From assembly GCA_013414765.1 (NCBI GenBank), contig CP058708.1, positions 3,777,553 through 3,841,552 on the forward strand: a DNA stretch of 64,000 nt, written 5' to 3'. Position numbers and translations under genes: made by a program. Positions 31,861-58,143 of this stretch are shown here, piece after piece (within the stretch, counting starts at the first letter, position 1; every line of letters begins with the position of its first letter). The notes under the pieces were generated by a model that saw nothing but the letters and a program-made list of their open reading frames with translations, did no database searches and had not been told where the DNA came from. This DNA comes from Candidatus Accumulibacter cognatus. GTDB lineage: Bacteria > Pseudomonadota > Gammaproteobacteria > Burkholderiales > Rhodocyclaceae.

Positions 31861-32523
31861 TCGTGTGACATGAGTCTGACCGAGTCGATTCAGACCCAAG
31901 CCATGTCGGTCGATGCTCTGCCAGAGTACCTCCGACAACACTGGCCGGAAATCCGCGAGCAACTGGAGACGGGCCGCTACCGTCCGCAGCCGGTCAAGCG
32001 CGTGGAAATCGACAAGGCCGACGGGAAGAAACGCCCGCTGGGCATCTCGACGGTGTTCGACCGCTTCATCCAGCAAGCCGTCGCGCAAGTCGTCTCGGTG
32101 CAATGAGAACCGCACTTTCACCCCCAGAGTTACGGATTCCGCCCACAGCGTTCGGCCCATCAGGCTTTGCGTGAAGTGCGGGCGAACCTCCGGGCGGGAT
32201 ACGGCTGGGTAGTGGATAGGGAACTGCCAGCCTTCTTCGACCGGGTCAATCCTGACCGGCTGATGGCGCGCCTGAAGCAAAGGTGTCCAGATGCCGGTCT
32301 GCTGCGCCTGGTCAATCGCTTCCTGAAGGCGGGCGTGAGCGTGATGGGGTCGAGCGGGCTATCGGGAACTGCGCAAACACGGCGTGTCGGTGCGTGAAGC
32401 GTGGAACACCAGCAAGTCCGCGCACGGTCCGTGGCGGGCGTCGCAGATACCGGCCCTGTCGATCGCGCTCCCCTTGCGCTTCTTCGAACAAGTGGGACTA
32501 CCGAGTCTTGCGCCCCGGTAGGA
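31861..32523 (+). pseudogene. Group II intron reverse transcriptase/maturase remnant
   Basis: A broken LtrA-type gene. Residues resembling RT-0/RT-1 ([54 protein letters not shown]) are followed by an in-frame TGA at 32104, then the same frame resumes with SYGFRPQRSAHQALREV and FFDRVNPDRLMARL. After KAGV the central RT, including YADD, is deleted and the frame shifts into the maturase tail GYRELRKHGVSVREAWNTSKSAHGPW...LGF-type end FFEQVGLPSLAPR. The N-terminus is also missing. No endonuclease domain is visible. It is a dead element. Confidence 0.88.
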
Positions 32524-42608: not shown

Positions 42609-45440
42609 CTAGAGATCGAGCTGGCACTGCACGGCATAGAGCAGCGGCAGCGGATTGCCGCGCCGTACGTGCTGCTGCCGGAAGCCGAGCAGCAGGCCGG
42701 CAAGGCTGCGGCCCGGGCTGTGGAAACAGGCGTCGACGACATCGGCGCCGAAACGGGCCGCGAAGCCGGTCGGCACCGGAAAACTCGGGGCAATCAGACC
42801 GAGCGCCTTCTTCCGGCGGAAGGCGCGCAGGAAGCCGGTGAAGGACAAGGGCGAGAAGGCGCCGGCGCTGCAGGCGTTGAGAAAAATCACCGGCGCATTC
42901 CGGTAGACGCGTTGCTCGTCGATCTGATCGACCGAGACCGAGCAGCCATTGTCGAGTTCGAGCGATTCCGGCCGCGGCGCCGCGGGCGAGGGCGGCGGGC
43001 TGCCGTGGCAGAAGAGATAGATCAGCGTCGCGTCGGTCTTTGCCCGGACGACGACATCGCGAATATTCCGGCCATCGGCGTTGACCTCGACTGTTGGGCC
43101 CTGCGCCCTTAACGCGGCGGCCAGGGCGTCGTGCACCTTGCGCGGCTGATCGGCGTCGACGGTGATCGTCGGGTTGAGGTTGAGGCTCGCTGTCGCCTTC
43201 GCCTGCCGCCGGGCCTTCAGCAGCGAAGCGTAGTCGCCTTCGCCGAGGAACTGCGTTTCGAGCGCGAAGCGCGTGCCCCAGAACAGCTCCGGCTGCAGCG
43301 GCCAGTCGTCGGGCGCGTCCGCGTCGAAGCGCTGCGGGTACAGCAATTCCCACGGCAGCGATACGTCGCGGGTGACGATGGTCAGCCGCGTTCCCGGTTC
43401 GGCCTGACCTTCGATGTAGTCGAGGACGCTGCAGAATGTCGGATCCTCGCGCAGGGCCCGATAGAGCACGCCACCGGCCTGCGCGAACTGCCTGGCGACG
43501 CTCGTCAGCGCGCGCCGGCAGGCTGGCGCCGTGGTGTCCGAGCCGTCGAAGCCGTACCACACGGAGGAAGTCTCGTAGAGATTGGCTCCCAGGGTCGTCG
43601 CGAGTTGCGCGCGCAGCGCGTCCAGCCGGGCGCGGTCGATCGATGACGTGAAACCCCCGACCGAGTTGCTGAATTCTCCGTCGACGTAATCCTCCAGGTC
43701 GAGGTACAGGAGGTTGTTTTCAAAGCAGGCTTTCAGCCGCAAGCGACGCAGCGGCGGCTTGCCGACCTCGGCGCAGTCCTGCACCGCCCGCAATCCGTCC
43801 AGGTCGATGATCGTTGGCGAAACCACCGCCGGCAAGGCCTTGCCGGGCGGCAGCACGATGATCGGCAGGCGGAACTCGTAGAGCCGCGCGCCGGCGTGGT
43901 GGAACTCGACATGCACCCCGTATTCACCCGCCGAGCCGGCCAGCGCCCGCAGGGCAAAGGGCTGCGCCTGCTGCAGTCGGCCGTCCTTGAACTGTGCCTG
44001 GCGCGAATGCGGGCCGTCGATCGCCAGCCCGTCTTCGGGCGTCACGCTGATCGCCAGCGTCTGTTCGCCGGCCAGCAGCGGCTCGAGTTTTTCGCCTTCG
44101 ACGATCGCTCCTGCCGCGTCGCCCGCCGCGAACTGCTTGAAGACCAGCAAGGCGATTCCTTCGGCGAGCAGCGTCAGGCCCCTGGCCGCCGGACCTTCGA
44201 GGACGAAACCCAGCTTGCCGGCCGCCGCGCTCGCCTGTGCCTTCTCCTGCGGCGCCTCGTCGGACGACCCGTCGGCGATGCCCTTGCCGGTCCGCCCGGT
44301 TGGGTCGGGCAGCCGAAAGACATCGCGTCCGTCGCCATCGTCGAGAAAAGCGAAACCACGCTCGGCAAAGAGCGCGCGGAATCTCTTGGACGACGACCGC
44401 TCGCGCGCCGGGCCGGCGTCGTCCACCGTGGCCGGCGCCTCGCGCATCGTCTCCGTGTCGCCGCGGCGGCGCTTCTTGCCGCCGATGAGGGTGGCCCCCT
44501 TGCCGAGGGCCGTGGCGCCGTCGCCATGGGCGATGGCGCCGCCGCCGCGCAGTTTGGCGCGGTAGGAAACCGCCCCGGACGCCGGCAGCGCCAGCGGATC
44601 GGGCAGCCGCTGTCCCTTGGCGAGTCCCTCTCCGCCGAGCAGCAGCGCCACCGGAAAGTTGCCGCGCAACTCCGGCCACGGCGTTTGCACCGCCCCGTGG
44701 TCGGCGCGGGCGCTCTCCGGTACGCGGCGATGGAGGTGACCGATCAGGTCGGAAACCAGCACCCCGGTTGCGCCGCCGGCCGCCTGCGCGTGCCCGCTCA
44801 GCGCCTCGATCAGGTGATAGGTGAAAATGCTCATGCGGCCGTCGGCGCGCAGATACGAGAGCTGCCCCGGCCGGCACGAACTGAGCACGGCGCGGCCCTC
44901 GCCCTGGGCGAGCGGCGTCGCGGGCGACTTTCCGGCGGGCAGGAAGAGCGTCGGCGGCAGCGCCGCGCTGTGCAGTGCCGTGGCGGCGAGCGTGTCCTTG
45001 ACCCCCATCCCGCCCGCGTGGCAACAATCGAGCAGCACCAGCAGGCGGCGCGGCGCCAGCTTGGCAATCCGGGTCGCGAAGGTGGTGGCCGCCACCGCGC
45101 TTTGGCCGACCTGTTTCAGGTCGAGATCGTAAGGAATCAGGAAATACTCGCCGTCCTGCTCGTGGCCGTGGCCGCTGAAATAGACGATCGCCGTCGCGTC
45201 GTCGTCGGCGGCCACGCACTCGGCCAGCCAGTCGAGCCCGGCCAGGATGCCTTGCCGGCTGCTCTCGGCGCCGGTCAGCAGGCGGACCTTGTCGGGCCGG
45301 TAGGCGCAGCGCTGCGGGTGGACCAGCACGTCGTATAGCGCGCGCGCATCGGCGGCGACGGCGGGCAGCGCCGCCGCGGCTTCCCGGTTCTGGTCGACGG
45401 CAATCAGCAGCGCGTAGGCGTTTTCGAAGCGACGGCTCAT
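42609..45440 (-). CDS. Caspase-CHAT double protease
   Basis: A 943-residue protein with two predicted clan CD protease domains. Residues 1-270 are a caspase-like domain (ALLIAVDQN; catalytic His in YFSGHGH about 90, Cys in LLVLLDCCHAG about 138). Residues about 290-320 carry the Gly/Ala motif RGGGAIAHGDGATALGKG shared with the three DGR targets. The C-terminal half is a CHAT domain, with His in LIYLFCHGS and Cys in VIFLNACSAG. ATG 45440 follows GGGAGG by 7 bases; a GTG at 45455 is also in frame. It is divergent from the first NACHT target (111 bp). Its N-terminus is paralogous to that of the target at 54410. Probable executioner protease; inference from family. Confidence 0.9.
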   Translation of the reverse strand: MSRRFENAYALLIAVDQNREAAAALPAVAADARALYDVLVHPQRCAYRPDKVRLLTGAESSRQGILAGLDWLAECVAADDDATAIVYFSGHGHEQDGEYFLIPYDLDLKQVGQSAVAATTFATRIAKLAPRRLLVLLDCCHAGGMGVKDTLAATALHSAALPPTLFLPAGKSPATPLAQGEGRAVLSSCRPGQLSYLRADGRMSIFTYHLIEALSGHAQAAGGATGVLVSDLIGHLHRRVPESARADHGAVQTPWPELRGNFPVALLLGGEGLAKGQRLPDPLALPASGAVSYRAKLRGGGAIAHGDGATALGKGATLIGGKKRRRGDTETMREAPATVDDAGPARERSSSKRFRALFAERGFAFLDDGDGRDVFRLPDPTGRTGKGIADGSSDEAPQEKAQASAAAGKLGFVLEGPAARGLTLLAEGIALLVFKQFAAGDAAGAIVEGEKLEPLLAGEQTLAISVTPEDGLAIDGPHSRQAQFKDGRLQQAQPFALRALAGSAGEYGVHVEFHHAGARLYEFRLPIIVLPPGKALPAVVSPTIIDLDGLRAVQDCAEVGKPPLRRLRLKACFENNLLYLDLEDYVDGEFSNSVGGFTSSIDRARLDALRAQLATTLGANLYETSSVWYGFDGSDTTAPACRRALTSVARQFAQAGGVLYRALREDPTFCSVLDYIEGQAEPGTRLTIVTRDVSLPWELLYPQRFDADAPDDWPLQPELFWGTRFALETQFLGEGDYASLLKARRQAKATASLNLNPTITVDADQPRKVHDALAAALRAQGPTVEVNADGRNIRDVVVRAKTDATLIYLFCHGSPPPSPAAPRPESLELDNGCSVSVDQIDEQRVYRNAPVIFLNACSAGAFSPLSFTGFLRAFRRKKALGLIAPSFPVPTGFAARFGADVVDACFHSPGRSLAGLLLGFRQQHVRRGNPLPLLYAVQCQLDL

Positions 45441-45551
45441 CTTTTTCCTCCCCACCTCCGGTCATTCGCCGGCCTCCGGCATTGACAGCCGCGCGCGCAG
45501 ACAGGCATCCTCGTATCCTACTCCAACGATCACCCGGCGAGCGGCACGGCG

Positions 45552-48341
45552 ATGAACAGCGAACACCTTCCCCCAGCGAAAAAGCCGCGCCGAGGCGCGA
45601 AAGGCCGCGTCGAGGGCGACGGCGCGGTCGCCCAGGGCAAGGCGGCCACGGCCCTGGGCCAGGGTGCGCGCCAGGCCGGCCGCGACATCCACGAAGTCAC
45701 GATCGTCCTGCCGGCGGCAGCGCCCGACGCCACCGCCGCCGAACTGCGCCAGGCTTATCTGGGCTGGCTGGTGACGCAGGCCAACCGGCTGCCGCTCTTC
45801 GTCAGCGACGACAAGATGGTGCAACTGCCGGCGGTCTACACTGCGCTGCTCACCACGGCAAGCGACGACAGCCGCTTCCCGCCGGCCGCCGCAGGCGCGG
45901 CCCGCCAGCCCGGCGAGGGCGAGCCGCGCCAGGGCGAGCGCCTGTCGGCGCTCGAAGCGCTCGACCGCGAGCGCTCGCTGGTGCTGATGGGCGGACCGGG
46001 GAGCGGCAAGACGACCTTCCTCAACTTCGTCGCCTTGTGCCTGGCCGGCGAGCTATTGGGCTCTCCGGCCGCCAACCTGAAACTTCTCCGCCAGCCGATC
46101 CCGCGCGAACCTGACGCGGCGCGCGGCAGCAAGGCCAAGCGGCAACGCTGGACGCACGGCGCGCTGCTGCCGGTCTGCGTCGTGCTGCGCGATTTCGCCG
46201 CCAGCCTGCCGGCCGACGCCGCGGTCGACGCCGACACCCTCTGGCGCTTCATCGTCGGCCAGTGGCCCGAGCCACTGCGGCCCTACGCCGCCCCGCTGCA
46301 GCGCGAACTGCTCGGCCGCGGCGGACTGATCCTGCTCGACGGGCTCGACGAAGTCCCCGACGCCGAAAACCGGCGCGCCCAGGTCAAGCAGGCCGTGCAG
46401 TCCTTCGCCGGCCTGTACGGCCAGTGCCGCTTCCTCGTCACCAGCCGTACCTACGCCTACCAGCGCCAGGACTGGAAACTCATAGGCTTCGCCGAACGCG
46501 AACTGCTGCCCTTCACGCGCGGCCAGATCGAGCGTTTCATCGACGCTTGGTACGCGCACATGGCGCACGACCTGGCGCGCCTGAGCGCGTCGCAGGCGGC
46601 CGACGGCGCGGCGCGGCTCAAGCGCGCCAGCGAGCGCCCCGAGTTGAGCGAACTCGCCGCGCGGCCGCTGCTGCTGACCCTGATGGCGCGGCTGCAGACA
46701 CGCGGCGGCGGCGCGCTGCCGGAAAGCCGAGAGAAGCTGTACGCCGAATCGGTCGACATGCTGCTCGACGAGTGGGAACGTCACAAGCCGCGCTTCGACC
46801 GCCGCGGCCAGCGGATGGACGAACCCTGCCTCGGCGAGTGGCTGGGCGCCAGCCGCGAGAGCATCCGCCGAGAAATCGACCGGCTGGCCTACGAGGTACA
46901 TCTGGCGCAGCCCTCGCTGACCGGCACCGCAGACATCCACGAAGACGCGCTGACGGCGGCGCTGCGTGCCGCCTCGCGCGACCGGCCGGACGCCCGGCTG
47001 ATGCGCCTCGAGGAATACCTGCGCGACCGCGCCGGGTTGCTCAGCGCGCACGGCGAAGGCTGGTACCAGTTTCCGCACCGTTCCTTCCAGGAATATCTCG
47101 CCGCCTGCCACCTGGCTCGCTTCCAGTTTCCCGACCGGCTGAGCGAACTGGCGAAAGCCGATCCCGACCGCTGGCGCGAGGTCCTTCTGCTCGCCGCGGC
47201 GAGCGTCAGGAACGCGCCCACTGCCATCTGGGATCTGGTCGACACCCTGTGCGGCGAGCGCGTCGATCCGGACCCCGATGCGCCCGAACCCGACAGCGAA
47301 ACGCAATGGGGCGCGCTGCTTGCCGGCCAGGCGCTGCACGAAACCGGCCTGGCGGCGGCCGACCCCCACCTGCAGGAGCGCCACGAAAGCAAGCGCCGGC
47401 GCGTTCGCAACTGGCAGTGCTGGCTGTTGCGCAGCCGCCGTCTGCCGGCACGCGAACGCGCGCTCGCCGGCGACCTGCTCGCCGCGCTCGGCGACCCGCG
47501 ACGGGAACTGCTCGACGTCGACCACCTGCGCTTCGCCTTCGTGCCGCGCGGCGCTTTCTGGATGGGCGACGAAGGAGACAGCGACGCGCCGCTGCACCGC
47601 AACGAAACGCTGGACTATGACTACTGGATCGCCGAATCGCCGGTCACGGTGGCGCAGTTCGCGCAGTTCGTCGCCAGCGCCGGCGGCGAAGCGCACTATC
47701 CCTTGGCCTTGCGCGATCCGCCGAACCGGCCGCTGGCCTCGGTGAGCTGGCACGATGCCCTGGCCTTCTGCGCCTGGCTAGGCGAGCGCTGGCGCGACCG
47801 GCTGCCGGCCGGCTGGTCGGTCGCCCTGCCGTCGGAAGCCGAGTGGGAGAAAGCCGCGCGCGGTGGCGTCGAGCTTCCCGTCGCCGCGCAGTACGCCACG
47901 GTCGGCCCGGGCCTCACCCTTGCCGACCCGGCACGGCGGAAGAACCCGCAACCGCAGCGCGCCTGGCCCTGGGGCAGCGAGTGGGAACTCGACCGGGCGA
48001 ACGCCGAGGAGATCGTCGGTGCGAGCAGCACGCCGGGCTGCTTCGAGGCCGGGCGCAGCCCTTATGGCTGCCTGGATATGGCGGGCAACGTCTGGGAGTG
48101 GACGCGCAGTCTGTGGGGTACCGAAGGGTGGCAGCCGGCTTTCGTCTACCCCTACGATGCTAGGGATCGGCAACGTGAAGACCTGAACGCTCCGGACGAT
48201 GTCTGGCGGGTCGTGCGGGGCGGCTCGTGGGACTATCGTCGGGATAGCGCCCGCTGCGCCTTCCGCAGCAGGCTTCCCCCTGGCTCCCGGTTTGACTTTC
48301 TGGGTTTTCGGGTGGTGTTGCGTTCTTCCCCTGTTCCTTGA
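45552..48341 (+). CDS. NACHT NTPase with diversified FGE/lectin-like C-terminus (DGR target 1)
   Basis: A 929-residue STAND-type protein. A short basic N-terminus runs into the locus-wide motif EGDGAVAQGKAATALGQGA (about 20-40). NACHT follows: Walker A LMGGPGSGKTTF (about 145-156) and Walker [13 protein letters not shown] (about 258-269), then a helical region with RPLLLTLMARLQTR and FPHRSFQEYLAACHLA typical of NACHT proteins. From about 655 (FVPRGAFWMGDEG) an FGE-sulfatase domain ends in VVRGGSW...[10 protein letters not shown]. The last 41 codons before the tail are VR1 (48209-48330). There is no effector domain of its own, so it probably works with a partner such as the divergent caspase-CHAT. 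Predicted role: ligand sensor whose binding face is varied by the retroelement. Confidence 0.92.
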   Translation: MNSEHLPPAKKPRRGAKGRVEGDGAVAQGKAATALGQGARQAGRDIHEVTIVLPAAAPDATAAELRQAYLGWLVTQANRLPLFVSDDKMVQLPAVYTALLTTASDDSRFPPAAAGAARQPGEGEPRQGERLSALEALDRERSLVLMGGPGSGKTTFLNFVALCLAGELLGSPAANLKLLRQPIPREPDAARGSKAKRQRWTHGALLPVCVVLRDFAASLPADAAVDADTLWRFIVGQWPEPLRPYAAPLQRELLGRGGLILLDGLDEVPDAENRRAQVKQAVQSFAGLYGQCRFLVTSRTYAYQRQDWKLIGFAERELLPFTRGQIERFIDAWYAHMAHDLARLSASQAADGAARLKRASERPELSELAARPLLLTLMARLQTRGGGALPESREKLYAESVDMLLDEWERHKPRFDRRGQRMDEPCLGEWLGASRESIRREIDRLAYEVHLAQPSLTGTADIHEDALTAALRAASRDRPDARLMRLEEYLRDRAGLLSAHGEGWYQFPHRSFQEYLAACHLARFQFPDRLSELAKADPDRWREVLLLAAASVRNAPTAIWDLVDTLCGERVDPDPDAPEPDSETQWGALLAGQALHETGLAAADPHLQERHESKRRRVRNWQCWLLRSRRLPARERALAGDLLAALGDPRRELLDVDHLRFAFVPRGAFWMGDEGDSDAPLHRNETLDYDYWIAESPVTVAQFAQFVASAGGEAHYPLALRDPPNRPLASVSWHDALAFCAWLGERWRDRLPAGWSVALPSEAEWEKAARGGVELPVAAQYATVGPGLTLADPARRKNPQPQRAWPWGSEWELDRANAEEIVGASSTPGCFEAGRSPYGCLDMAGNVWEWTRSLWGTEGWQPAFVYPYDARDRQREDLNAPDDVWRVVRGGSWDYRRDSARCAFRSRLPPGSRFDFLGFRVVLRSSPVP
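48209..48330 (+). repeat. Variable repeat VR1
   Basis: 122 bp, aligned without gaps to the TR at 54120-54241 (opposite strand). There are 16 differences by hand count, all at template adenines. The last 30 bases, which contain no adenine in the template, are identical. It encodes the surface loop at the end of the FGE domain in target 1. Confidence 0.95.
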
Positions 48342-48425
48342 CTCTGTCCTCCGTTCCCTCCGGCCTCTGTCACTCCGGGATCTCGGACTCCGGAGGGGGT
48401 GCGGGGGAAACTTCCCCCGCCGCGC
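48331..48425 (+). repeat. Conserved VR-downstream flank, copy 1
   Basis: Follows VR1 and holds the stop codon, GACTCTGTCCTC, a stem of ACTCCGGG...CCGGAG type and the palindrome GGGGGAAACTTCCCCC. Near-identical copies follow VR2 (52185-52272) and VR3 (54319-54420, minus); the TR lacks it. Likely target-recognition or homing structure, possibly also a terminator. Confidence 0.8.
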
Positions 48426-48566
48426 CGGGTGGCCTTCAGGCGCGGCGTGCATTTCCTGGTCTTCCGCCGCCCTCGTGCCATCGTGAGGCCAGTACAATCA
48501 AGAGTCTCGATGCCCGCCGGCACCGGTATCAGCCCATACTCGGTGTTTACCCTATCTGACCCTGGA

Positions 48567-48818
48567 ATGTCGAAAGCCATTCAAGCCTTGCGCCTGATTA
48601 CCAGACCAAGTAACCATCAACTGCTGATCGAACTGCCCCCCGGCATGGACGATTGCCTGCTGGAGGTCATCGTGTTGCCGGCGGCCGAAACGGATCCGGC
48701 TTACGCCGTGTCAAGGCGAAGGCGCCGGCCTGCGCCGATGCTCGCCGGAACCGTCACCCTACAGGACGACCTGCTTGCGCCAGCCATTCCGGATGGCGAT
48801 TGGGAGGTACTGCGGTGA
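48567..48818 (+). CDS. VapB-like antitoxin remnant pair, first gene
   Basis: An 83-residue protein starting MSKAIQALRLITRPSNHQLLIELPPGMDDCLLEVIVLPA. It resembles small DUF2281-type antitoxins that precede PIN toxins, with a C-terminal DGDWEVL tail that would sit on the toxin. It overlaps the next start by 4 bp (GTGA at 48815), as such pairs do, but the following PIN gene is reduced to a stub. It lies between DGR targets 1 and 2 and is not obviously part of that system. Confidence 0.65.
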   Translation: MSKAIQALRLITRPSNHQLLIELPPGMDDCLLEVIVLPAAETDPAYAVSRRRRRPAPMLAGTVTLQDDLLAPAIPDGDWEVLR

Positions 48819-48889
48819 TCGTCCTCGATTCGCACATCGAGCGTTTCGCAGACTACACCGAGCTGATGGCTAGGCTCATTCCACATTGA
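48815..48889 (+). pseudogene. PIN-toxin gene stub
   Basis: Twenty-four codons starting with GTG, reading MIVLDSHIERFADYTELMARLIPH. The first eight match the N-terminus of VapC-type PIN proteins (VLDTHI); the body of the domain is missing. It looks like an internal deletion that left both ends of a vapC gene. Confidence 0.5.
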
Positions 48890-48922
48890 TCAGTCGTAAA
48901 TCTTTCGTCGCGAGCCGACAGC

Positions 48923-51900
48923 ATGATCATTACCCGAAAAATTTTCCTCGCCTCCTCGCAGGAACTCGAAGACGACCGCCGGGAGTTCGAAATCTTCATC
49001 GCGCGCGAGAACAAGTCGTGGGTCAAGCAGGGGGTGGAACTCGAACTCGTCCTTTGGGAAGACTTCCTCGACGCGGTTTCGCGCACGCGCCTGCAGGACA
49101 AATACAACGAGGCCGTCCGTAGCTGCGACCTCTTCGTCCTGCTCTTCTTCACCAAGGTCGGCCCCTATACCGCGGAAGAGTTCGCGGCGGCCTACGAGCA
49201 CTTCCAGGCTACCGGCAAACCCTTGCTGTACACCTATTTCAAGGACGCGCCGCACAACGCCGCGCGCGCCGACCTGCTGAGCCTGTGGGCGTTTCAGGAC
49301 AAGCTCGAGGCCCTCGGCCACTTCCCGACGAAGTACAGCAACGCCGACCAGCTCAAGCTGCACTTCCGCCAGCAGCTCGACAAACTCGCCGCCAGCGGTT
49401 TCGGCGAGCTCCTTCCGGATCGGGCTGCCCCTGCCTTACCCGGCGGCAGCCGCTTCGACGCGGTGCTCAAGGGCGACGGGGCTATCGCCCAGGGTGCCGG
49501 CGCCATCGCCGTCGGTGCCGGCGGCCAGTTCACGCAGATCGTCCAGCAGAAGGTCCCGCGCCGCGACAAGGCCGCCGAGGAGCGTGCGGTCATCGCCGAC
49601 TACCTCGCCGCGCTGGCCAGCGAACTTTCCGGCCTGAAACTCGGCGAGATCGACGTCGCCGCCAGCGACGCGCGCCGCGAGCCCTTGCAGCTTGCCGACG
49701 TCTACGTGCCGCTGGCCACCCATCTGCGCTTGCCGGCGCAGACGACGCTGGCGCAGTGGCTGGCCAGCGACCGGCAGCGCACGCACGGCGAGCGCGCCGA
49801 TCTCGAAACTGCCGCGCACGACAGCCGGCCGGTGCCGGCGCTCGAAGCACTGGCGCAGCATCGGCAACTGACGCTGCTCGGCGCCGCCGGCAGCGGCAAG
49901 AGCACTTTCGGCGCCAGCGTCCTGCTGACACTGGCGCAGGCCTGGCCGGGGCAGGCCGATCGGCTCGTCGATCTGGGGGACTCCTGGACGCACGGCGCGC
50001 TGCTGCCGGTGCGCGTCGTTCTGCGCCGCTTCGCCGAAGCGCTTCCGGCCGGCGGCACGCCGTCTTGCGCCGGCGACCTCTGGGCCTTCATCGGGCGCTC
50101 GCTCGACGCCGCGGGCTACGGCCTGTCGCCCGCCACCTGCCAGACCATTCGGCGCGTTGCACGCGACCAGGGGGCGCTGTTTCTCTTCGACGGCCTCGAC
50201 GAATGCGGCAGCGAAGCCGCTTGCCGGCGCGTCCTCGGCGCGGTCGAGGAGTTCATGCGCAGCGCCGGCCGGCACTGCCGTTTCCTGCTCACCGCACGGC
50301 CCTACGCCTGGCCCGGCGGTGCCGATCCGGCGCAAGGCGTGTACGCGCTGGCCGACCTCGACGACGAACAGATCGAGCAGTTCATCCGCGCCTGGTACGC
50401 CGCGCTGGCGAAGCGCCAGTGGTTGTCGCCCGGCGACGCCGGGCGCAAGTGCGACGACCTGCTCGCCGCGCGCCAGCGCCCGGACCTGCGGCCGCTGGCG
50501 CAGAACCCCCTGCTGCTGACGCTGATGGCCTCGCTGCACGCCAATCGCGGTCGCCTGCCCGACGACCGCGCCGACCTCTACGACGACTCGATCCACCTGC
50601 TGTTGCTGCGCTGGAACCGGCAGATCGGCGCCGACCAGGCGCTGCTCGACGCGCTGGCGATTCCGACGCTGAAGCTCGCCGACCTGCGCGGCGTGCTCGA
50701 AGAGCTGGCTTTCGCCGTGCATGCCGGGAGCGCCGTCGGGCCGGTCGTTCTGCACGCCGGCCCGGCCGCCGCCGGCGCCCCGGCCGACATCGACGAAGGC
50801 CGCCTGCTGGCGGCGTTCCGGCCCTTGCTGCAGGACAGCCTGGACAAAGCCGCGATCGTCGTCGACTACATCGAGAAACGCGCCGGCCTCCTGCTCGGCC
50901 AGGGCTTCCGCAACGGGCAACGGCAGTTCGCCTTCCCGCACCGCAGCTTCCAGGAATTCCTCGCCGCCTGCCATCTCGCCGCGCGGCCGGATTTCGCCAC
51001 CGAGTGCGCGCGCCTGGCCCGGCAAGCTCCCGGCCACTGGCAGCTCGTTCTGCCGCTGGCGGCGCGGCTGGCCAAGGCCGAGCGCGGCGCCAGCGCGGCC
51101 GACGAGCTGATCGGCGGCCAGGCGGTTGCCGAGCGCCGCCGGCAAAGACCGCTCGACGCCGCCGACTGGAGCTGCGCCTTGCTGGCCGGAAGGCAGTTGC
51201 TCGAGATCGGCGTCGGCGCGATCCGCCAGCGCGAGCGCACCGCCGCCATCGCGGAGCGCGTCGCCGGCTGGCTCGCCGCGTCGCTGCCGCTCCATCCCGA
51301 CGACGGTGGCGCGACGCGAACGCAGCGCGCGCAGGCCGGCGACGTGCTGGCGCAACTCGGCGATCCGCGTTTCGATGCGCAGCGATTCTTTCTGCCGGCC
51401 GACGACGGGCTCGGCTTCGTGCGCATTGCCGCCGATCCCGAGTTCGCGATCGGCACGCGACCAAGAGACAGGGAACAGGTTTCACGCATCGCCGATTACG
51501 CGATTTCCGATGACGACATCAACGACACGCCGACGCCCACGCCGGAATTCTACATCGCGCGTTATCCGGTCACCGTCGCCCAGTTCCGCGCCTTCGTCGA
51601 GGCAACGGGATACGCGATCGGCGACAGGAACGCCTTGCGCGACCCGGACAGCCGGCCGGTGCGCTACGTGAGCTGGCACGAGGCACTGGCCTGGTGCGAC
51701 TGGCTCACCGAGGTGCTGGCCACTTCCGGCGTTTTCGCCGGCCATCCGATCGCCAGTCTGGTGCGCGAACGCGCCTGGCGGGTCGCTCTGCCGAGCGAAC
51801 TCGAGTGGGAAAAAGCGGCGCGCGGCGGTTCCACCGGCGCGATTTTTCCATGGGGAGACGAGGCCGATCCCGAACGCGCCAACTCCGATGCGGCGGAGAT

Positions 51901-52195
51901 CAACGACAGCTCAGCGGTCGGTTGCTTCCCGGCGAACGGTTTCGGTCTGTATGATCTGGCGGGCAACGTCTGGGAATGGACGCGCAGCGTATATCTTCCC
52001 TATCCTTACGACCCCGGCGACACGAAGCGCGAAGACCTGAAGGCCGCTGACCGGGTGACTCGGATCGTGCGGGGTGGCTCGTGGCTCAATCATCGAGTCA
52101 GGGCCCGCTGCGCCTTCCGCAGCGGGTATCACCCCGGCGTCCGAGACGGCGGTCTCGGTTTTCGGGTGGTGTTGCGTTCTTCCCCTGTTTCTTGA
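48923..52195 (+). CDS. TIR/DUF4062-like NACHT protein with diversified FGE C-terminus (DGR target 2)
   Basis: A 1090-residue protein. The N-terminal 150 residues (KIFLASSQELEDDRREFEIFI...LELVLWEDFLDAVSRTRLQDKYNEAVRSCDLFVLLFFTKVGPYTAEEF) have the Rossmann-like pattern of DUF4062/TIR-like effector-associated domains. The motif KGDGAIAQGAGAIAVGAGG (about 182-203) follows, then NACHT with Walker A LLGAAGSGKSTF (about 318) and Walker B LFLFDGLDEC (about 418), helical repeats, and an FGE domain from about 825. VR2 (52063-52184) encodes the end, [13 protein letters not shown]. It is convergent with the RT gene, 12 bp apart. The TIR-like part could be an NADase or only an adaptor; the sequence does not settle this. 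Confidence 0.9.
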   Translation: MIITRKIFLASSQELEDDRREFEIFIARENKSWVKQGVELELVLWEDFLDAVSRTRLQDKYNEAVRSCDLFVLLFFTKVGPYTAEEFAAAYEHFQATGKPLLYTYFKDAPHNAARADLLSLWAFQDKLEALGHFPTKYSNADQLKLHFRQQLDKLAASGFGELLPDRAAPALPGGSRFDAVLKGDGAIAQGAGAIAVGAGGQFTQIVQQKVPRRDKAAEERAVIADYLAALASELSGLKLGEIDVAASDARREPLQLADVYVPLATHLRLPAQTTLAQWLASDRQRTHGERADLETAAHDSRPVPALEALAQHRQLTLLGAAGSGKSTFGASVLLTLAQAWPGQADRLVDLGDSWTHGALLPVRVVLRRFAEALPAGGTPSCAGDLWAFIGRSLDAAGYGLSPATCQTIRRVARDQGALFLFDGLDECGSEAACRRVLGAVEEFMRSAGRHCRFLLTARPYAWPGGADPAQGVYALADLDDEQIEQFIRAWYAALAKRQWLSPGDAGRKCDDLLAARQRPDLRPLAQNPLLLTLMASLHANRGRLPDDRADLYDDSIHLLLLRWNRQIGADQALLDALAIPTLKLADLRGVLEELAFAVHAGSAVGPVVLHAGPAAAGAPADIDEGRLLAAFRPLLQDSLDKAAIVVDYIEKRAGLLLGQGFRNGQRQFAFPHRSFQEFLAACHLAARPDFATECARLARQAPGHWQLVLPLAARLAKAERGASAADELIGGQAVAERRRQRPLDAADWSCALLAGRQLLEIGVGAIRQRERTAAIAERVAGWLAASLPLHPDDGGATRTQRAQAGDVLAQLGDPRFDAQRFFLPADDGLGFVRIAADPEFAIGTRPRDREQVSRIADYAISDDDINDTPTPTPEFYIARYPVTVAQFRAFVEATGYAIGDRNALRDPDSRPVRYVSWHEALAWCDWLTEVLATSGVFAGHPIASLVRERAWRVALPSELEWEKAARGGSTGAIFPWGDEADPERANSDAAEINDSSAVGCFPANGFGLYDLAGNVWEWTRSVYLPYPYDPGDTKREDLKAADRVTRIVRGGSWLNHRVRARCAFRSGYHPGVRDGGLGFRVVLRSSPVS
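52063..52184 (+). repeat. Variable repeat VR2 (diverged)
   Basis: 122 bp aligned to the TR without gaps. By hand count 22 differences: 14 at template adenines and 8 at other bases (repeat positions 2, 13, 37, 40, 73, 82, 85, 94). The 3'-most 28 bases are identical. The extra changes suggest it has not been rewritten by this TR recently, or was written by an earlier TR version. Confidence 0.9.
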
Positions 52196-52272
52196 CTCTG
52201 TCCTCTGTCACTCCGGGTACTCCGACTCTGGAGGGGGTGCGGGGGAAACTTCCCCCGCCGCGCGCAGCGCGG
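52185..52272 (+). repeat. Conserved VR-downstream flank, copy 2
   Basis: Same elements as copy 1, with a deletion of about 17-20 bp between two CTCTGTC repeats. It also encodes the last 18 or so codons of the RT on the other strand. Confidence 0.8.
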
Positions 52273-53338
52273 ACTTTAGGTGCGGCGTGCCGGGATCGGA
52301 TGCGCCGCGAAGAGGTGCTTGCGCAAACCCCCAGGTGTCGGCGTAGCGAACGTGATTGATCCAGCCGCGCACGCTGGCGTCGAGTTCGGCGAAGGAGATC
52401 GACCCCGCGCCATACGCGTCGAGATTGCCGCTCAGCCGGCGTGTGAAGTTGACCGCGTTGCGCCGCTTGAGCAGACGATGCGTCGGGTACACGACGAAGC
52501 CGAGCCAGGGGATTCCGCAGCGCGTCGGCAGTACCTGCGCCTGCGCCGCGTGGATCGTCAGCCTCTCCTGTTCCAGGCGGGCGATCAGCGCCTCCTTCCA
52601 TTGCCACAGCGTTTTCCGGTCGTCGCCGAACAGGGCGAAGTCGTCGACGTAGCGCAGGTAGGCGCCGCAGCCCAGTTGGCGCTGCACGAACCAGTCGAAG
52701 TCGTCGAGATAAACGTTCGACCAGAACTGCGAAGTCAGATTGCCGATCGGCAGGCCGCGTGGGCGGCAGGCGGCGAGCAGGTCGTCGCCGGGGAAGTACA
52801 CCGGACTGTACTCGTCCGCCAGCACGCCGACGCCGCTGTCGAGGATGAGGCCGGCCAGCCACAGCAGATCCGGATCGTCGACCACGCGCGCCAGCTTGCC
52901 GCGCAGGAGATCGTGGTCGAGCGACGGGAAATGCTGCACGATATCGGCGCGCAGCACGTAGCGATAACGCCGCGCATGGTGCTGCAGCCGGTCCAGCGCC
53001 CGGTGCGTTCCCTTGCCGCGGCGATTGGCGTAGCTGTCGGCGATGAAGCTCGCCTCGAACAGCGGCTCGATCACCTGGCACAGGGCGTGATGGACGACGC
53101 GGTCGCGAAACGGCGCGGCACTGATCTTGCGGCGCTTCGGCTCGTGAATGAAGAAGTGGCGATAGGCGCCGGGGCGATAGGACTTGCTGCGCAACTCGTC
53201 CTGCACGGTCACCAGTCGGTCAGCCACTTGCTGTTCGAAAGCCGCCGCGCTGCCCTTGCGGCGCTTGCCGCGCGCGGCGACGGCAAAGGCCTGCCAGAGA
53301 TTGTCCCATTCGATGACGGCGTCGAAGAGCTCAGCCAT
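52208..53338 (-). CDS. Diversity-generating retroelement reverse transcriptase
   Basis: A 376-residue reverse transcriptase. The fingers and palm motifs are in place: [44 protein letters not shown] (RT1-2), [18 protein letters not shown] (RT3), [23 protein letters not shown] (RT4) and [14 protein letters not shown] (RT5, YVDD). The RT4 pattern I-G-x-x-x-S-Q rather than QGxxxSP is diagnostic of DGR enzymes. There is no maturase or endonuclease domain. The C-terminal tail ([20 protein letters not shown]) is encoded by the VR flank repeat. ATG 53338 is chosen; a GTG at 53347 is in frame. It copies TR RNA with adenine-directed errors for homing into VRs. Confidence 0.95.
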
Positions 53339-53441
53339 TGGCGACACGGCCCGCCGCCGCGCGAGCCGACCAAGTCGCTCGAGTCGCCTGCGGTGCCGGC
53401 GAACGGCGCTGCTTCATTCTTCCTGCCCGGAGTTGCCCACG

Positions 53442-53834
53442 ATGCCCACCACGAAAGAACTGGTGATTTTCACCCAAACTTATGATCTCCTTAGCTGGCT
53501 CCTGCCGCACTGCGAGCGCTTCCCGAAGAATCAGCGCTTCGTCGTCACCCAGCGCCTGCAGGCGGCGGCGCTCGATTTCCAGGAGGCGATCTTCGAAGCC
53601 AACGCCCGCCACGGTGCTCAGCGCCTGCAGCATCTGCACGCCGCCGACGCGCAGCTCAACAAGCTGCGACTGTACTTGCGGCTGGCCCGGCAATGGGATT
53701 GGCTGAGCAGCGGCCAATACGAGCACGTCAGCCGCCTCGTCGCCCAGGTCGGACGGCTGCTCGGCGGCTGGATTCGGCAAACGGCATCCGGCAGGCCCGG
53801 TGACTCGGGTCGCGAGGCCGAGGAGTTCTCCTGA
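53442..53834 (+). CDS. avd: Avd-type accessory protein of the DGR
   Basis: A 130-residue, all-helical protein of the four-helix-bundle (23S-IVP/Avd) family: ELVIFTQTYDLLSWLLPHCERFPKNQRFVVTQRLQAAALDFQEAIFEAN, then HAADAQLNKLRLYLRLARQWDWLSSGQYEHVSRLVAQVGRLLGGWI. In DGRs Avd forms a basic pentamer that binds the RT and the TR RNA and is needed for cDNA synthesis. GGAG lies 9 bases before the ATG. Unusually it is divergent from the RT (103 bp between starts) and convergent with the TR, which lies 285 bp downstream on the other strand. Confidence 0.93.
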   Translation: MPTTKELVIFTQTYDLLSWLLPHCERFPKNQRFVVTQRLQAAALDFQEAIFEANARHGAQRLQHLHAADAQLNKLRLYLRLARQWDWLSSGQYEHVSRLVAQVGRLLGGWIRQTASGRPGDSGREAEEFS

Positions 53835-54119
53835 CTCAGGGCATTCCGGTGGCGGGAGCCGGGGCGGGAACGGCGGGCGCGTCGGCCTGGCCGTTCCCGT
53901 GCTTCGCTATGCGCCCGGCGCGGGCGATTGCCCCGCTGTCGCCCTGCCTTGCGGCCTGCGCGCGGACCAGACCGGTCTGGCGCTGTTCTTCTTCCTTCGC
54001 CTCGGCCGGCAAATCCGCTCGCGCGAATCGACCGGCATTTCCGGAACACGACCGGCACGGGGGGTGCCGGCGCGCCGTCCCGCCTGACGGCGGAACCAGA
54101 AGAAGGGGCGGAAGAACGT
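53835..54119 (-). other. Sequence downstream of TR
   Basis: 285 bp between avd and the TR. In the TR direction it would form the 3' part of the TR transcript. It has two GC-rich hairpins (for example GGCACCCCCCGTGCC near 54055-54069). A minus-strand frame runs through TR and this stretch (to 53836) but has no start of its own and is not called. Possibly structural RNA needed for priming, as in phage BPP-1. Confidence 0.45.
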
Positions 54120-54241
54120 GGGAAGAACGCAACACCACCCGAAAACCCAGATTGTCATTCCGGTTGCCAGGGTGATTCCTGTTGCGGTAGGCGCAGCGGG
54201 CGTTATCTCGATGATTGTTCCACGAGCCGCCCCGCACGACC
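54120..54241 (-). repeat. DGR template repeat (TR)
   Basis: 122 bp, read on the minus strand. It has 23 adenines, most in eight AAY codons when read in the target frame ([25 protein letters not shown]). The last 30 bases before the end contain no adenine (CTGGGTTTTCGGGTGGTGTTG and on). All VR1 and VR3 differences fall on these adenines. It lies downstream of target 3 and upstream of RT on the same strand. Confidence 0.96.
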
Positions 54242-54257
54242 TCTCCAGACTGCCTGA

Positions 54258-54275
54258 CCGGGTGTTGCCACCCGG
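54258..54275 (-). other. Hairpin upstream of TR
   Basis: A perfect 7-bp stem CCGGGTG / CACCCGG with a GCAA (GNRA-type) loop on the TR strand, 16 bp before the TR. It could be part of the TR transcript or its promoter region. Confidence 0.55.
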
Positions 54276-54290
54276 CCGGCGAAGGATAGC

Positions 54291-54345
54291 AAAAAAAAAT
54301 CGCGCGCCGCGCCGCGCCGCGCTGCGCGCGGCGGGGGAAGTTTCC
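54291..54345 (-). terminator. Terminator between target 3 and TR
   Basis: On the minus strand, a GC-rich palindromic stretch (GCGCGCAGCGCGGCGCGGC and on) follows GGGGGAAACTTCCCCC and ends in nine Ts (complement of A9 at 54291-54299). It should end the target 3 transcript, so the TR needs its own promoter or read-through. Confidence 0.7.
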
Positions 54346-54420
54346 CCCGTACCCCCTCCAGAGTCGGAGTACCCGGAGTGACAGAGGCCGGAGGGAGCAG
54401 AGGACAGAGTCAAGGAACAG
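54319..54420 (-). repeat. Conserved VR-downstream flank, copy 3
   Basis: Follows VR3 on the minus strand; same stop region, CTGTCACTCCGGGTACTCC and palindromic GGGGGAAACTTCCCCC as the other two copies. It is full length like copy 1. Confidence 0.8.
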
Positions 54421-57400
54421 GGGAAGAACGCAACACCACCCGAAAACCCAGAACGACATCCCGGTAGCCAGGGCGATTCCCGTCGCGGTAGGCGCAGCGG
54501 GCGAGAACTCGATGACTGTCCCACGAGCCGCCCCGCACGACCCGTAGAATGCCATTGGTAGCATCCAGCGCCTCTCGCCGGGGATCTTTCGCCTCGTAGG
54601 GATAGGCAAAGGTCGGTTTCTCCCAGTCGTCGCCCCAGAGGCTGCGCGTCCATTCCCAGACGTTGCCGACCATGTCGAAGAGCCCGAAGCCATTGGCCGC
54701 GAAGCAGCCGACCACCGACGTATCACCGATCCGCGAATAGTCATGGTTCGCGGCGTTCAGGTCGGCCTCGTCTCCCCAGGAGAAGACCGCAGCGCTCAGA
54801 CCGCCACGCGCGGCTTTCTCCCACTCGAGTTCGCTTGGCAGGGCGACCCGCCAACCGTGCTCACGCACCAGGCTGGCGATCGGATGGCCGGCGAACACGC
54901 CGGAAGTGGCCAGCACCTCGTTGAGCCAGCCGCACCAGGCCAGCGCCTCGTGCCAGCTCACGTAACGCATTGGCCGGCTGGCCGGGTCGCGCAAGGCGTC
55001 CCTGTCGCCGATCGCGTATCCAGTCGCCTCGACAAAAGCGCGGAACTGGGCAACGGTCACCGGATAACGCGCGATGTAGAACTCGGGCGCCGGCGTTGGT
55101 GTGTCGTTGACCTCGCGCTCGTACACCTTTTCCCCGATGATCCTGGCCACGCGCGCCGTGTCCTGTCGCCGCGTGCCGATCACGAAGCCCGGATCGGCAG
55201 CTATGCGAACGAAACCCAGCATTTCGTCGGCCGGCAGATAGAAACGCTGGGGGTCGAAGCGCGGATCGCCGAGCTGCGCCAGCCGGTCGCCGGCGCGAGC
55301 GCGGATGACCGGTTGCGACTTCGCCAGCGCCTCGGCGTCGCTCAAGAGGCTGACGATGCGGCGCGCGCACTCGGCGCGCAGCGCCTCGCCGCTGTCGCGC
55401 CATTCGATCGCCGCCGTGGCAGCCAGCTCGGCGGCCGAGAACTGTACATTGGCGACGCTGCCGGTTTCGGCCAGGGCGCGCAGGAGGTCGCGTGCCGAGC
55501 GGGCGGCGTGCGTCGCCTGATAACCGGCCAGCAGCAGGATCGGCTCGCGCCACCAGGGGTCCTCGATTCGTTCGGCGAGGAAGGAGAGCATCGCTTCGCG
55601 GCTGTCGCGCCCGATGACCTCGCTCAGGTAGCGGGCGACGAGGAATTCCTGCAAGGCGAGATGCAGGAAGCGGAAGGCGCCGTCGCGCTCTTCGAGCACG
55701 CTGCCGCGTTGCCGCGCATGACGGACGAAATCGTCGAGCCGCGGCTGAAACGCTTCTTCGGCGCGCAGGATGGCGCGCAGCGCCGGCTCCTCGATCTCGC
55801 GCCCCTGGTCGGCGCCCTGCTGGTGCATGTGGAAAGCGAGCTGCTGCGCCATGTCGCGGTACAGCGTCCAGTCGGCGGACAGTTCGCGTCTGTCGCTCTC
55901 GTCGTACCCGTAATCGACCTGCAGCAGCGCGTTGATCGCCTTGTCGAAGAGGTCGGCGCGCTGTTCGGGCAGCGCGCGGTTGTTGAGATGGACGATCAAC
56001 AGCAGGCGCACCATCAGCGGGCTGTCGACCAGCGCGGCGGCGTTCTCGCCCAGGCGCTGGCGGCGATCGGCCTCGAGCCGCAGGATCCCGCTCAGCAGGT
56101 CGTCGGAGCGCTCAAGCCGGAGCACGCTGTCCTTCGGGTGGCGGCAGGCGTAGGCTTGACGCACCATCGGCGCGATGTGCTGCTTGTGGTCGAGCGCCTG
56201 CACCAGGATATCGCGAAAGTCGGCCCCGAGGGCAGTGCTGCCACTGCGGTAGGCGATCGTGCGGCAGGTGACGACGACGCGCATTGCGTTGCGGCCGGCG
56301 ACGAGATTCTCCACCGACTGGCGGACCTCGGCGCGTTCGCCCTCGTTCGCCACCTCGTCGAGTCCGTCGAGCAGCAGCAGCACGTTACGTCCGTCATTGA
56401 GCAGGCGGACGAAGAAGTCGGCCGACAGGTCGAAGGGGGATTCTTTGCTGATCAGATGGTAGGAGATGAAATGCGCCAGCGTTTTTTCGCGCGCCGGCGC
56501 CGCAGCCGGCAAATGACGACGATAGCGCGCGAAAGAGGCTAGCGGCACGAGGATCGGCAGCGGCAGTTCGCTCGCCGCCATCGTCAGGCCGAGGCGCGAG
56601 CGCGCGGGTTCAGGCCGCCCGGCGAGCAGCGAAGACGCCAGTGCCCAGGCCATGTGCAGCAGGACCGTCGTCTTGCCGCAACCCGGCCCGCCGATGATCG
56701 CCAGACGATGGCCGAGACCGAGCACCTCGTTCAGGGCGATGTCGGCTTCGCGGCCGGAAAGCCCGCCGGAGCGCGGCAGCGAGCGGGCGCGCAGCGGCAC
56801 ATAGGCGGTCTCGATCGGCAACACGACGACCGGAGCGCCACCCGCCTGTTCGATGCCGCGCAGCTCGATACTCTGTGTGCGCTCCTGCAGCCAGCGCAGG
56901 TAGCCGGCGACCTGTCGAGCGATGTTTTCCTTGCTCGGGGCGTCGGCGGCGCGGTAGTAGTGGTTGACGATTTGCGTGCCGCTGACGACGGTGCCGCGGT
57001 TGTCGCGGCGGACCTGGATCGCACCTTTGCCGAGGGCAGTGCCGCCGGCCTGCGCTACGGCGCCCGAACCGCTGACGCTGGCCTGCCAGGAAACCGCCGG
57101 CGGCAGGGGCGCCAAGGGGTCGGGCGCCGCCTGCCCCTTGCCGAGCCCTTCGCCGCCGAGCACCAGCGCGACCGGAAAGTTGCCGGTGAGGCGTGGGTCC
57201 GGGGTCTGTGGGGCGCCATGCTGCGCCCGCGCGCTTTGCGGGACGTGCCGCTGCAGGTAGCCGATCAGGTCGGAAACCAGCACTTCGGGTGCTCCACCGC
57301 TCGGCTGCGCGTGTCCGGTCAGCGCCTCGATCAGGTGATAGGTGAACAGACTCATGCGCCCGTCGGCGCGCAGGTAGGAGCGTTCGCCGGGCTGGCACGA

Positions 57401-57967
57401 ACTGAGCACGGCGCGCCCGGCGCCACGGGCGAGGCGACCGGCCGCCAGCGACTTGGCCTCGGGCAGGAAGAGCGCCGGCGGAATCGCCGCACTGACGAAT
57501 GGCGCCGGCGCGGCCTGCTTGACCGCCATGCCGGCCGCGTGACAGCAGTCGAGCACGACGAGCAGGCGGCGCGGCGTCAGTTGCGCGACGGCGTCGGCAA
57601 AGTCGGCGGCACGGATCGCGCTGCTGCGCATCCGGCGCAAGTTGAGGTCGTAGGGGATCAGGTAGTGTTCGCCGCCCTCGACGTGGCCGTGGCCGCTGAA
57701 GTAGAGGATGGCCGTCGAGTCACCGTCCGGAGTCGCCGCCAGTTCGTCGGCCAGCCAGTCGAGTCCGTCGAACAAGCCTTGCCGGCTGCTCTCGGCGCCG
57801 GTCAGCAGGCGAAGCTTGTCCGGCGCGTAGCCGCAGCGCGCCGGATGCACCAGGACATCGCGCAGGGCGCGCGCGTCGGCGGCCACGGCCGGCAGGGCGG
57901 CACTGGCTTCCTTGTTCTGGTCCACGGCGATCAGCAGCGCACAGGCGTTCGCGAAGCGAGGGCTCAT
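54410..57967 (-). CDS. Caspase-NACHT protein with diversified FGE C-terminus (DGR target 3)
   Basis: A 1185-residue protein. Residues 1-270 are a caspase-like protease (ALLIAVDQN; His in YFSGHGH about 91, Cys in LDCCHAA about 139). The motif [17 protein letters not shown] lies at about 292-310. NACHT has Walker [12 protein letters not shown] (about 422) and Walker [12 protein letters not shown] (about 527), followed by helical repeats ([17 protein letters not shown]). The FGE domain starts about 915 and ends with VR3 (54421-54542) and [13 protein letters not shown]. So sensor, switch and protease are in one chain. ATG 57967 follows AGGAG by 5 bases; the frame is open to 58027. It is the first unit of the typical order target-VR, TR, RT. 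The predicted outcome, suicide proteolysis on ligand binding, is inference. Confidence 0.93.
54421..54542 (-). repeat. Variable repeat VR3
   Basis: 122 bp aligned to the TR without gaps; 13 differences by hand count, all at template adenines (A to G 7, A to T 5, A to C 1). It is 179 bp from the TR on the same strand, the nearest target. Confidence 0.96.
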
Positions 57968-58143
57968 CTGGTCTCCTGGTTGGGCGGCGGTGGGGCAGGA
58001 AACGCGATAGAGCGCGTCCCCCGGCACCGACTATCGTACCCGAGATCGCCTGCTCCGATCCGTGCAGCGGGCGCGCCGCGCGCTCACCACGGCTGCCGGG
58101 TCAGCCAGCGGGCGGCAATCGACGCCCTGGCAATCGGCGGATG

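Follow-up and report, generated by a model that had tools for sequence, protein, structure and literature searches.

A chromosomal diversity-generating retroelement of Candidatus Accumulibacter cognatus with three NACHT targets, one of them stale, and a phased pentamer array downstream of its variable repeats

Results

Layout of the retroelement

We analyzed a stretch of 64,000 nucleotides (hereafter, the window; C1:3777553-3841552 of a genome of 5,169,514 bases in a single contig) from Candidatus Accumulibacter cognatus, a species of a wastewater genus. The window holds a diversity-generating retroelement (DGR). The element comprises a reverse transcriptase (RT), the accessory protein Avd, one template repeat (TR), and three target genes (T1, T2, and T3), each bearing a variable repeat (VR). 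Downstream of each VR, a run of CNCTG-type pentamers (hereafter, the array) follows directly after the stop codon of the target and precedes a GC-rich hairpin. The features are as follows:

45552 to 48341, plus strand: target T1, with NACHT and FGE-sulfatase (C-type-lectin type) domains
48209 to 48330, plus strand: VR1, in T1
48342 to 48392, plus strand: phased CNC(T/C)G array after VR1, with 6 units that match and one, CTCGG, that does not; it begins directly after the stop codon of T1
48401 to 48420, plus strand: GC-rich hairpin downstream of VR1
48923 to 52195, plus strand: target T2, with a weak TIR/DUF4062-like N terminus, NACHT, and FGE-sulfatase
52063 to 52184, plus strand: VR2, in T2
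52196 to 52230, plus strand: array after VR2, of 5 units; the arrays of VR1 and VR3 are 16 bp longer
52239 to 52258, plus strand: hairpin downstream of VR2, the same as that of VR1, antisense within the 3' end of the RT gene
52208 to 53347, minus strand: RT (RVT_1), 379 aa
53442 to 53834, plus strand: Avd, divergent from the RT gene
54120 to 54241, minus strand (54241 to 54120): TR, 122 bp, outside the target genes
54332 to 54349, minus strand: hairpin downstream of VR3, the same as that of VR1
54359 to 54409, minus strand: phased array after VR3; 7 units
54421 to 54542, minus strand: VR3, in T3
54410 to 58027, minus strand: target T3, with caspase (Peptidase_C14), NACHT, and FGE-sulfatase domains

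An initial annotation, made from the letters of the window, had proposed a TR with three gap-free VRs of 122 bp, an Avd at 53442-53834, and an RT at 52208-53338. All of these are present, and only the last coordinate had to be corrected, since the RT frame runs to 53347 with a GTG start. This frame is open, and its translation contains the DGR-type motifs YxDD and (I/V/L)GxxxSQ as YVDD and IGNLTSQ, respectively (the SQ motif is defined in PMC3521204; what we say of publications cited by PMC number refers to the sections of those texts that were searched). Avd matches the bAvd family (PF22296) with 79.2 bits against a cut-off of 40. Two further DGR features were found, in that the initiation of mutagenic homing (IMH) sequence differs from its counterpart IMH* and that a hairpin follows the VR.

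All three targets combine a NACHT with an FGE-sulfatase domain (FGE, formylglycine-generating enzyme). The order effector, NACHT, and C-terminal sensor is seen in T3, whose N-terminal caspase domain carries SGHG and DCCH stretches. At its effector end, T2 matches TIR_2 weakly (E = 0.012) and PADLOC PDC-S60 at 2.8e-8, and no effector was recognized in T1 by domain and PADLOC-type scans. When the T3 sensor domain was modeled (mean pLDDT 69), formylglycine-generating enzymes were the best fold matches, and the Treponema denticola variable protein 2y3c was matched as well (rank 37 of 85, E 6e-6).

VR1 and VR3 differ from the template at adenines only

Read on the minus strand, the TR contains 23 adenines in 122 bp. 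All 16 differences between VR1 and TR, and all 13 between VR3 and TR (same orientation), fall at template adenines; TR-VR alignment thereby bears out the earlier hand count. The chance of an adenine-only draw at random is 6e-15 for the 16 sites of VR1 and 1e-11 for the 13 sites of VR3. Comparing TR with VR1 and VR2 on the plus strand was uninformative, since it is the minus strand that carries TR and VR3.

The A-only rule of DGRs holds in VR1 and VR3 but not in VR2, which differs from TR at 22 positions, 14 of them A and 8 non-A. By hand count, third codon positions hold 7 of these 8 non-A changes, a pattern as expected of a gene that is under ordinary selection and has long gone without re-templating. 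Judged by these differences, VR2 is stale, i.e., drifting rather than freshly templated. The initial description of one template with three targets thus stands as regards the single TR and the three VR-bearing genes, but not as regards VR2, whose differences had gone uncounted. A different TR as the source of VR2 was considered and rejected: among six TRs, none fits better than that of the window (9 non-A differences), the TR of L139 giving 10 (related loci are designated by L numbers).

The array after VR2 has lost 16 bp

The hairpin lies 74 to 75 nt beyond the VR core at VR1 and VR3, and 58 nt beyond it at VR2. More specifically, the VR2 flank, compared with that of VR3, has lost 16 bp between CCTCTG direct repeats, leaving 5 units rather than 7. 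In L139, the T2 ortholog shows full hairpin spacing (74) and a clean VR, i.e., one free of non-A differences. We suggest that VR2, with its array two units short, is probably no longer written, and that the 16-bp loss is perhaps the reason for its staleness, in what is a single case.

We also considered the location of VR2 at the 3' end of the RT gene as a cause of staleness and rejected it, as VRs at the same position have no non-A differences in L118, L139, L025, and L031; elsewhere, such VRs have 1 (L012 and L127) or 4 (L120). The final ~20 residues of the RT match sites beside VR1 and VR3, because the VR2 hairpin sits in the antisense 3' end of the RT gene.

A phased array follows VRs of several RT groups

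To place the array in context, related loci were assigned by hand to groups A, B, and C from RT identity and locus type. We settled on CNCTG as the unit once group A had been viewed and on CNCTT once group B had, and turned to the cyanobacterial and phage sets afterwards. Counts were made for one VR per locus, and over 75 nt for CNCTG in group A. The 31 counted group A loci consist of 14 from Accumulibacter and 17 from Chloroflexi or Anaerolineae, Planctomycetota, Gammaproteobacteria, Poribacteria, and others (by record name); L023, L026, L030, L036, L125, L128, L129, L130, L135, L138, L140, and L161-L164, in which no TR/VR pair passed, were left out.

At least two CNCTG units occurred in all 31 counted group A loci, amounting to 144 observed units against 45.1 ± 5.2 in dinucleotide shuffles, and motif-free autocorrelation in this group gave z scores of 7.3 at lag 7 and 8.3 at lag 15. 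Outside this count, the looser TR/VR pairs of L125 and L130 have 6 and 8 CNCTG units, respectively. Across 46 loci of all groups, the 113 intervals between CNCTG units measured 7 in 41 cases, 8 in 20, 9 in 8, and 13 in 13, and most of the other intervals were near two or three periods. Likewise, in group B (15 loci, RT identity 40-49%), the unit CNCTT was observed 43 times against 14.2 ± 2.8, with at least two units in 12 of 15 loci and z scores of 7.6 at lag 7 and 7.5 at lag 8. Group C (16 loci of the L091 type) showed no such periodic signal (z 0.5 at lag 7, -2.1 at lag 8, and 4.2 at lag 9), and two CNCTG units were found in 1 of its 16 loci. The ungrouped loci L141 and L142 have no clear array (0-1 CNCTG and 0-2 CNCTT per VR).

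Similar periodicity was found in further sets. In five cyanobacterial plasmid DGRs, the flank of one VR per element carries 3-4 CNCTT units and the TR flank 0-1, with z scores after VR of 3.0 at lag 7 and 6.5 at lag 8. The phage set started from 153 loci, of which 117 had a clean pair and 71 were left once similar flanks had been removed; a run of at least 100 nt was available for 56 (25 BPP-1-like phages and 31 non-redundant loci from two RT queries). In the 31 loci, the z scores after VR were 6.1 at lag 7 and 4.4 at lag 8, versus 1.5 at either lag after TR. CTG/TTG spacings after VR in 28 of these 31 loci were 7 in 38/73 and 8 in 19/73; after TR, they were 7 in 0/7 and 8 in 1/7. The 25 BPP-1-like phages gave a lag-7 z of 3.9 when the segment was cut at the hairpin and of 0.0 in a fixed 51-nt segment, and we do not count them as support for the array because this result is unstable between segment choices. 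Over TR flanks of all groups (four flanks in group B), no comparable signal was seen, the largest z at lag 7 or 8 being 2.1 (group A, lag 8).

As a separate observation, a group of phage DGRs (contigs L328, L333, L337, and L349) carries, ahead of the hairpin, AATC units with a spacing of ~7-8 nt, which may be another unit type.

In a tree of 79 of the 89 RTs (10 were too short), the 24 of 31 group A RTs that could be placed form one clade (24 rows, support 100/100), 11 of 13 group C rows form another, with L169 and L170 elsewhere, and group B falls into two clades, with L172 elsewhere; 22 of the 56 phage loci entered the tree. The cyanobacterial plasmids fall within one of the two group B clades and so do not form a lineage apart from B. 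The related-locus search found no relatives of the window RT in viral contigs, and tblastn gives 134 phage records at <60% identity.

These data bear on whether the array belongs to the DGR at all. It might be a tandem repeat made by slippage, a terminator, or a repeat found genome-wide: it is built of short, pyrimidine-rich units, CCTCTG direct repeats flank the 16 bp lost at VR2, and intergenic heptamer repeats are known elsewhere (PMC4679880). However, spacer bases differ among the units of one array, and TR flanks of the same loci have no comparable signal. Moreover, the unit tracks the RT rather than the host, in that, within Accumulibacter, at least two CNCTG units are found in 14/14 group A but 0/4 group B loci, at least two CNCTT units in 3/4 group B loci, and neither in 13/13 group C loci. 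Finally, the motif CTCTGNNCTCTG has 11 sites in the genome, 5 at DGR targets and the remaining 6 within open frames. We therefore regard such an origin as distinctly unlikely, and the array as well supported as a pattern; what it does, we infer.

RT integrity and re-templating in related loci

Across the locus set, RT loss and VR drift go together. For an intact RT (19 loci), the mean number of non-A mismatches was 0.61, with zero in 24 of 33 VRs, and for a truncated RT (8 loci) it was 2.19, with zero in 6 of 16 VRs (Mann-Whitney p = 0.003 by VR and 0.016 by locus, values that serve only as guides because the loci are related). Left out of this test were one VR of L033 (14 non-A), L035 (RT ambiguous), L122 (a copy of L121), groups B and C, loci without a called TR, and L013, L024, and L166 (no core count).

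Two loci are orthologous in part to that of the window. In L119 (A. contiguus), T1, T3, RT, and the caspase gene are matched at about 87-93% identity, and no match to the T2 body was found; this locus is without 504 bp (window 53155-53658) spanning the starts of RT and Avd, and its VRs depart from their own TR at 3 and 8 non-A sites. L139 (Accumulibacter sp. Bin45) begins inside the T2 ortholog, includes the T3 ortholog, and has kept RT residues 259-374, with no Avd match in the locus. Its TR differs from that of the window at 5/137 aligned positions, and both of its VRs show 0/94 non-A differences (core) from their own TR. Because the TRs differ and yet the L139 VRs follow their own, the lineages of the window and of L139 were both re-templated after parting.

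Truncated RTs in related loci of the genus (L119, L139, L137, L155, L089, and L090), together with the drift of VR2, would also fit a relic, in which the RT is inactive and the A-only differences date from an earlier, active time. We consider this very unlikely for the window, where the RT and Avd frames are open with their motifs kept, and where VR1 and VR3 have 0/94 non-A differences each, as against 3 and 8 in L119 with its truncated RT. A dead RT in all relatives, which the initial annotation would have taken as refuting a DGR, is not what we found: the RT is truncated in L119, L139, and L137 and open in others.

Separately, L121 (G012:C9) and L122 (G004:C45) are seemingly the same DGR locus in two species, with identical A-difference counts, owing to either recent transfer or cross-binning.

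Other DGR loci of the genome

The initial annotation had suggested a genome-wide look for remote VRs. A TR search and a scan of 14 genome stretches yielded further TR/VR sets at L089, L090, L091, and L093, and therefore the three targets of the window are part of a larger DGR repertoire; FGE-sulfatase matches number 29 in this genome. L089 and L090 hold only fragments of a window-related RT and of Avd, and their VRs have 0 and 7 (L089) and 2 and 5 (L090) non-A differences. The RT of L091 is more distant (about 35% identity), and the VRs of this locus have 1 non-A difference of 96 each. The repeat signal at L092 was rejected as a DGR, as it looks like an ordinary duplication of an FGE gene, with differences at A and non-A alike.

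One intact RT might serve RT-less TR/VR cassettes in trans, forming a network of non-autonomous DGRs in the genus. This idea accords with L089 and L090, which have TR and VRs beside mere fragments of a window-related RT, with L137 and L139, where the RT is truncated and 2/2 VRs each have 0 non-A differences, and with PMC10907252, which proposes trans action for its DGR 4 and 5. However, the RT-less loci of the genome drift (0 with a 1-base gap, and 7, in L089; 2 and 5 in L090), so that the idea of the window RT serving L089 and L090 is not supported, and recent RT loss also explains L137 and L139. We hold a trans network to be rather unlikely.

Three details of these loci are recorded here. 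The L089 VR without non-A differences (L089:9923-10035) has a one-base gap relative to TR that apparently shifts the frame of the target. At L091:7233-10401 (C1:208000-226000) lies a second DGR, from a different RT group; its two VRs are nearly clean, and its RT frame is apparently open. L093:6366-8052 (C1:686000-702000) contains a TR, two VRs, one of which differs from the TR by 18 nt in length, and an RT fragment that ends at the TR.

Discussion

Proposed mechanism

We think it likely that the window holds a chromosomal DGR that rewrites the sensor ends of NACHT-FGE proteins by adenine mutagenesis, at a site read as VR end, array, and hairpin. RT and Avd would make adenine-mutagenized cDNA from TR RNA, and this cDNA would be written into the 3' ends of the NACHT genes, altering the ligand-binding face of the C-terminal C-type-lectin (FGE) sensors. 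The target site would be read as the 3' end of the VR, followed by the pentamer array (period ~7.5 bp) as an extended IMH and then by the hairpin, and the TR, having no array, would stay the donor. Writing at VR1 and VR3 is probably ongoing, and the targets may be NLR-like (NOD-like receptor-like) invader sensors with caspase- or TIR-type effectors, which makes them candidate hypervariable immune sensors.

How a DGR writes its VR yet spares a near-identical TR is only partly understood. By analogy, the array may be an extended IMH, standing at the place of the IMH directionality element of Bordetella phage BPP-1. In that phage, the direction of transfer is determined by a 21-bp part of the IMH that mismatches TR at five positions, and the distance to the hairpin is also important, though somewhat flexible (Guo 2011, PMC3240598). 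More tentatively, and with a little less than even confidence, we propose that the phased array (units CNCTG, CNCTT, or [C/T]TG, depending on RT group) is a hitherto undescribed element, the general form of the IMH directionality element, and is read by the complex of RT, Avd, and RNA, that its unit number sets writing competence, and that the deletion at VR2 represents a naturally occurring loss of function. Being present at targets, absent at templates, and different by RT group, the array offers a concrete element for deletion, and the window provides a natural set under one RT, i.e., two full-length arrays with clean VRs and a shortened one with a stale VR.

Several observations weigh against the mechanism proposed at the outset: (i) VR2 departs from the A-only rule (14/22) despite the adjoining RT; (ii) a VR of L120 has 4 non-A differences even though the RT of this locus is intact and its hairpin stands at full spacing, so that array loss is not the sole road to staleness; (iii) the VRs of L137 and L139 are clean although their own RT is truncated, which points to either recent RT loss or service in trans; (iv) when one mismatch is tolerated, the window contains 5 sites of CTCTGNNCTCTG versus 4.6 expected, although all 5 are located at VR arrays; and (v) the putative immune role is read from domains, and T1 has no recognized effector.

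Comparison with known systems

The DGR is genuine and belongs to a known kind; the parts that merit a second look are the stale third target and the phased array. Three targets side by side had been noted initially as less usual; three VR-bearing genes are indeed present, but multiple VRs per DGR are already documented, with 19 DGRs having two, two having three, and three having four (PMC3521204). STAND/NACHT targets of this DGR kind are described by Dore et al. 2024 (PMC10907252), who name Accumulibacter among hosts with several related DGRs, and, as far as the sections searched go, the window DGR is of their conflict-system kind. Like their clade 5 DGRs of multicellular bacteria, it has NACHT and FGE/C-type-lectin targets with caspase/TIR-type effectors nearby, several DGR loci per genome, and degenerate loci; unlike them, it has three targets around one core, one with a stale VR. 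Target architecture agrees with their clade 5D, a likeness by architecture, our RT tree being built without the Dore reference sequences.

BPP-1 and the window share RT, Avd, TR, VR, an IMH that differs between VR and TR, and a hairpin downstream of the VR (PMC3240598). In contrast, the BPP-1 target is a tail protein and those of the window are NACHT proteins; the hairpin of the window lies 58-75 nt beyond the VR core, with an array of 5-7 units, versus 4-34 bp in the phage DGRs of PMC3240598; and periodicity is unstable in BPP-1-like phages, unlike in the clade of the window. The T. denticola variable protein 1 (2y3c) resembles the T3 sensor in its FGE-type C-type-lectin fold match, but is an outer-membrane lipoprotein target (PMC10907252) and not a NACHT protein.

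The searched sections of PMC10907252 make no mention of a phased array, nor was a description found in those of PMC3240598, PMC3521204, PMC12875486, PMC7159879, PMC2704941, PMC4679880, PMC10743442, PMC7517822, PMC4891356, PMC7290462, PMC5006420, and PMC6328139; the 2018 DGR survey and the 2008 IMH paper, which were outside this search, may describe it. PMC8144416 gave no hit in a term search, and a literature search for YadA/NACHT gave no match.

Neighboring genes and minor observations

Beside T1 lies a gene for a caspase-like protein (42609 to 45455, minus strand), which has no VR and is a possible partner of the targets. A short linker rich in GxGAxAxG is common to this gene (44480-44550), T1 (45615-45680), and T2 (49472-49535), and could join the three proteins in one complex. 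Elsewhere in the window, an RVT_1 match with one internal stop (32008-32349) lies, as judged by eye, between transposase-like frames and is perhaps a broken reverse transcriptase of another kind.

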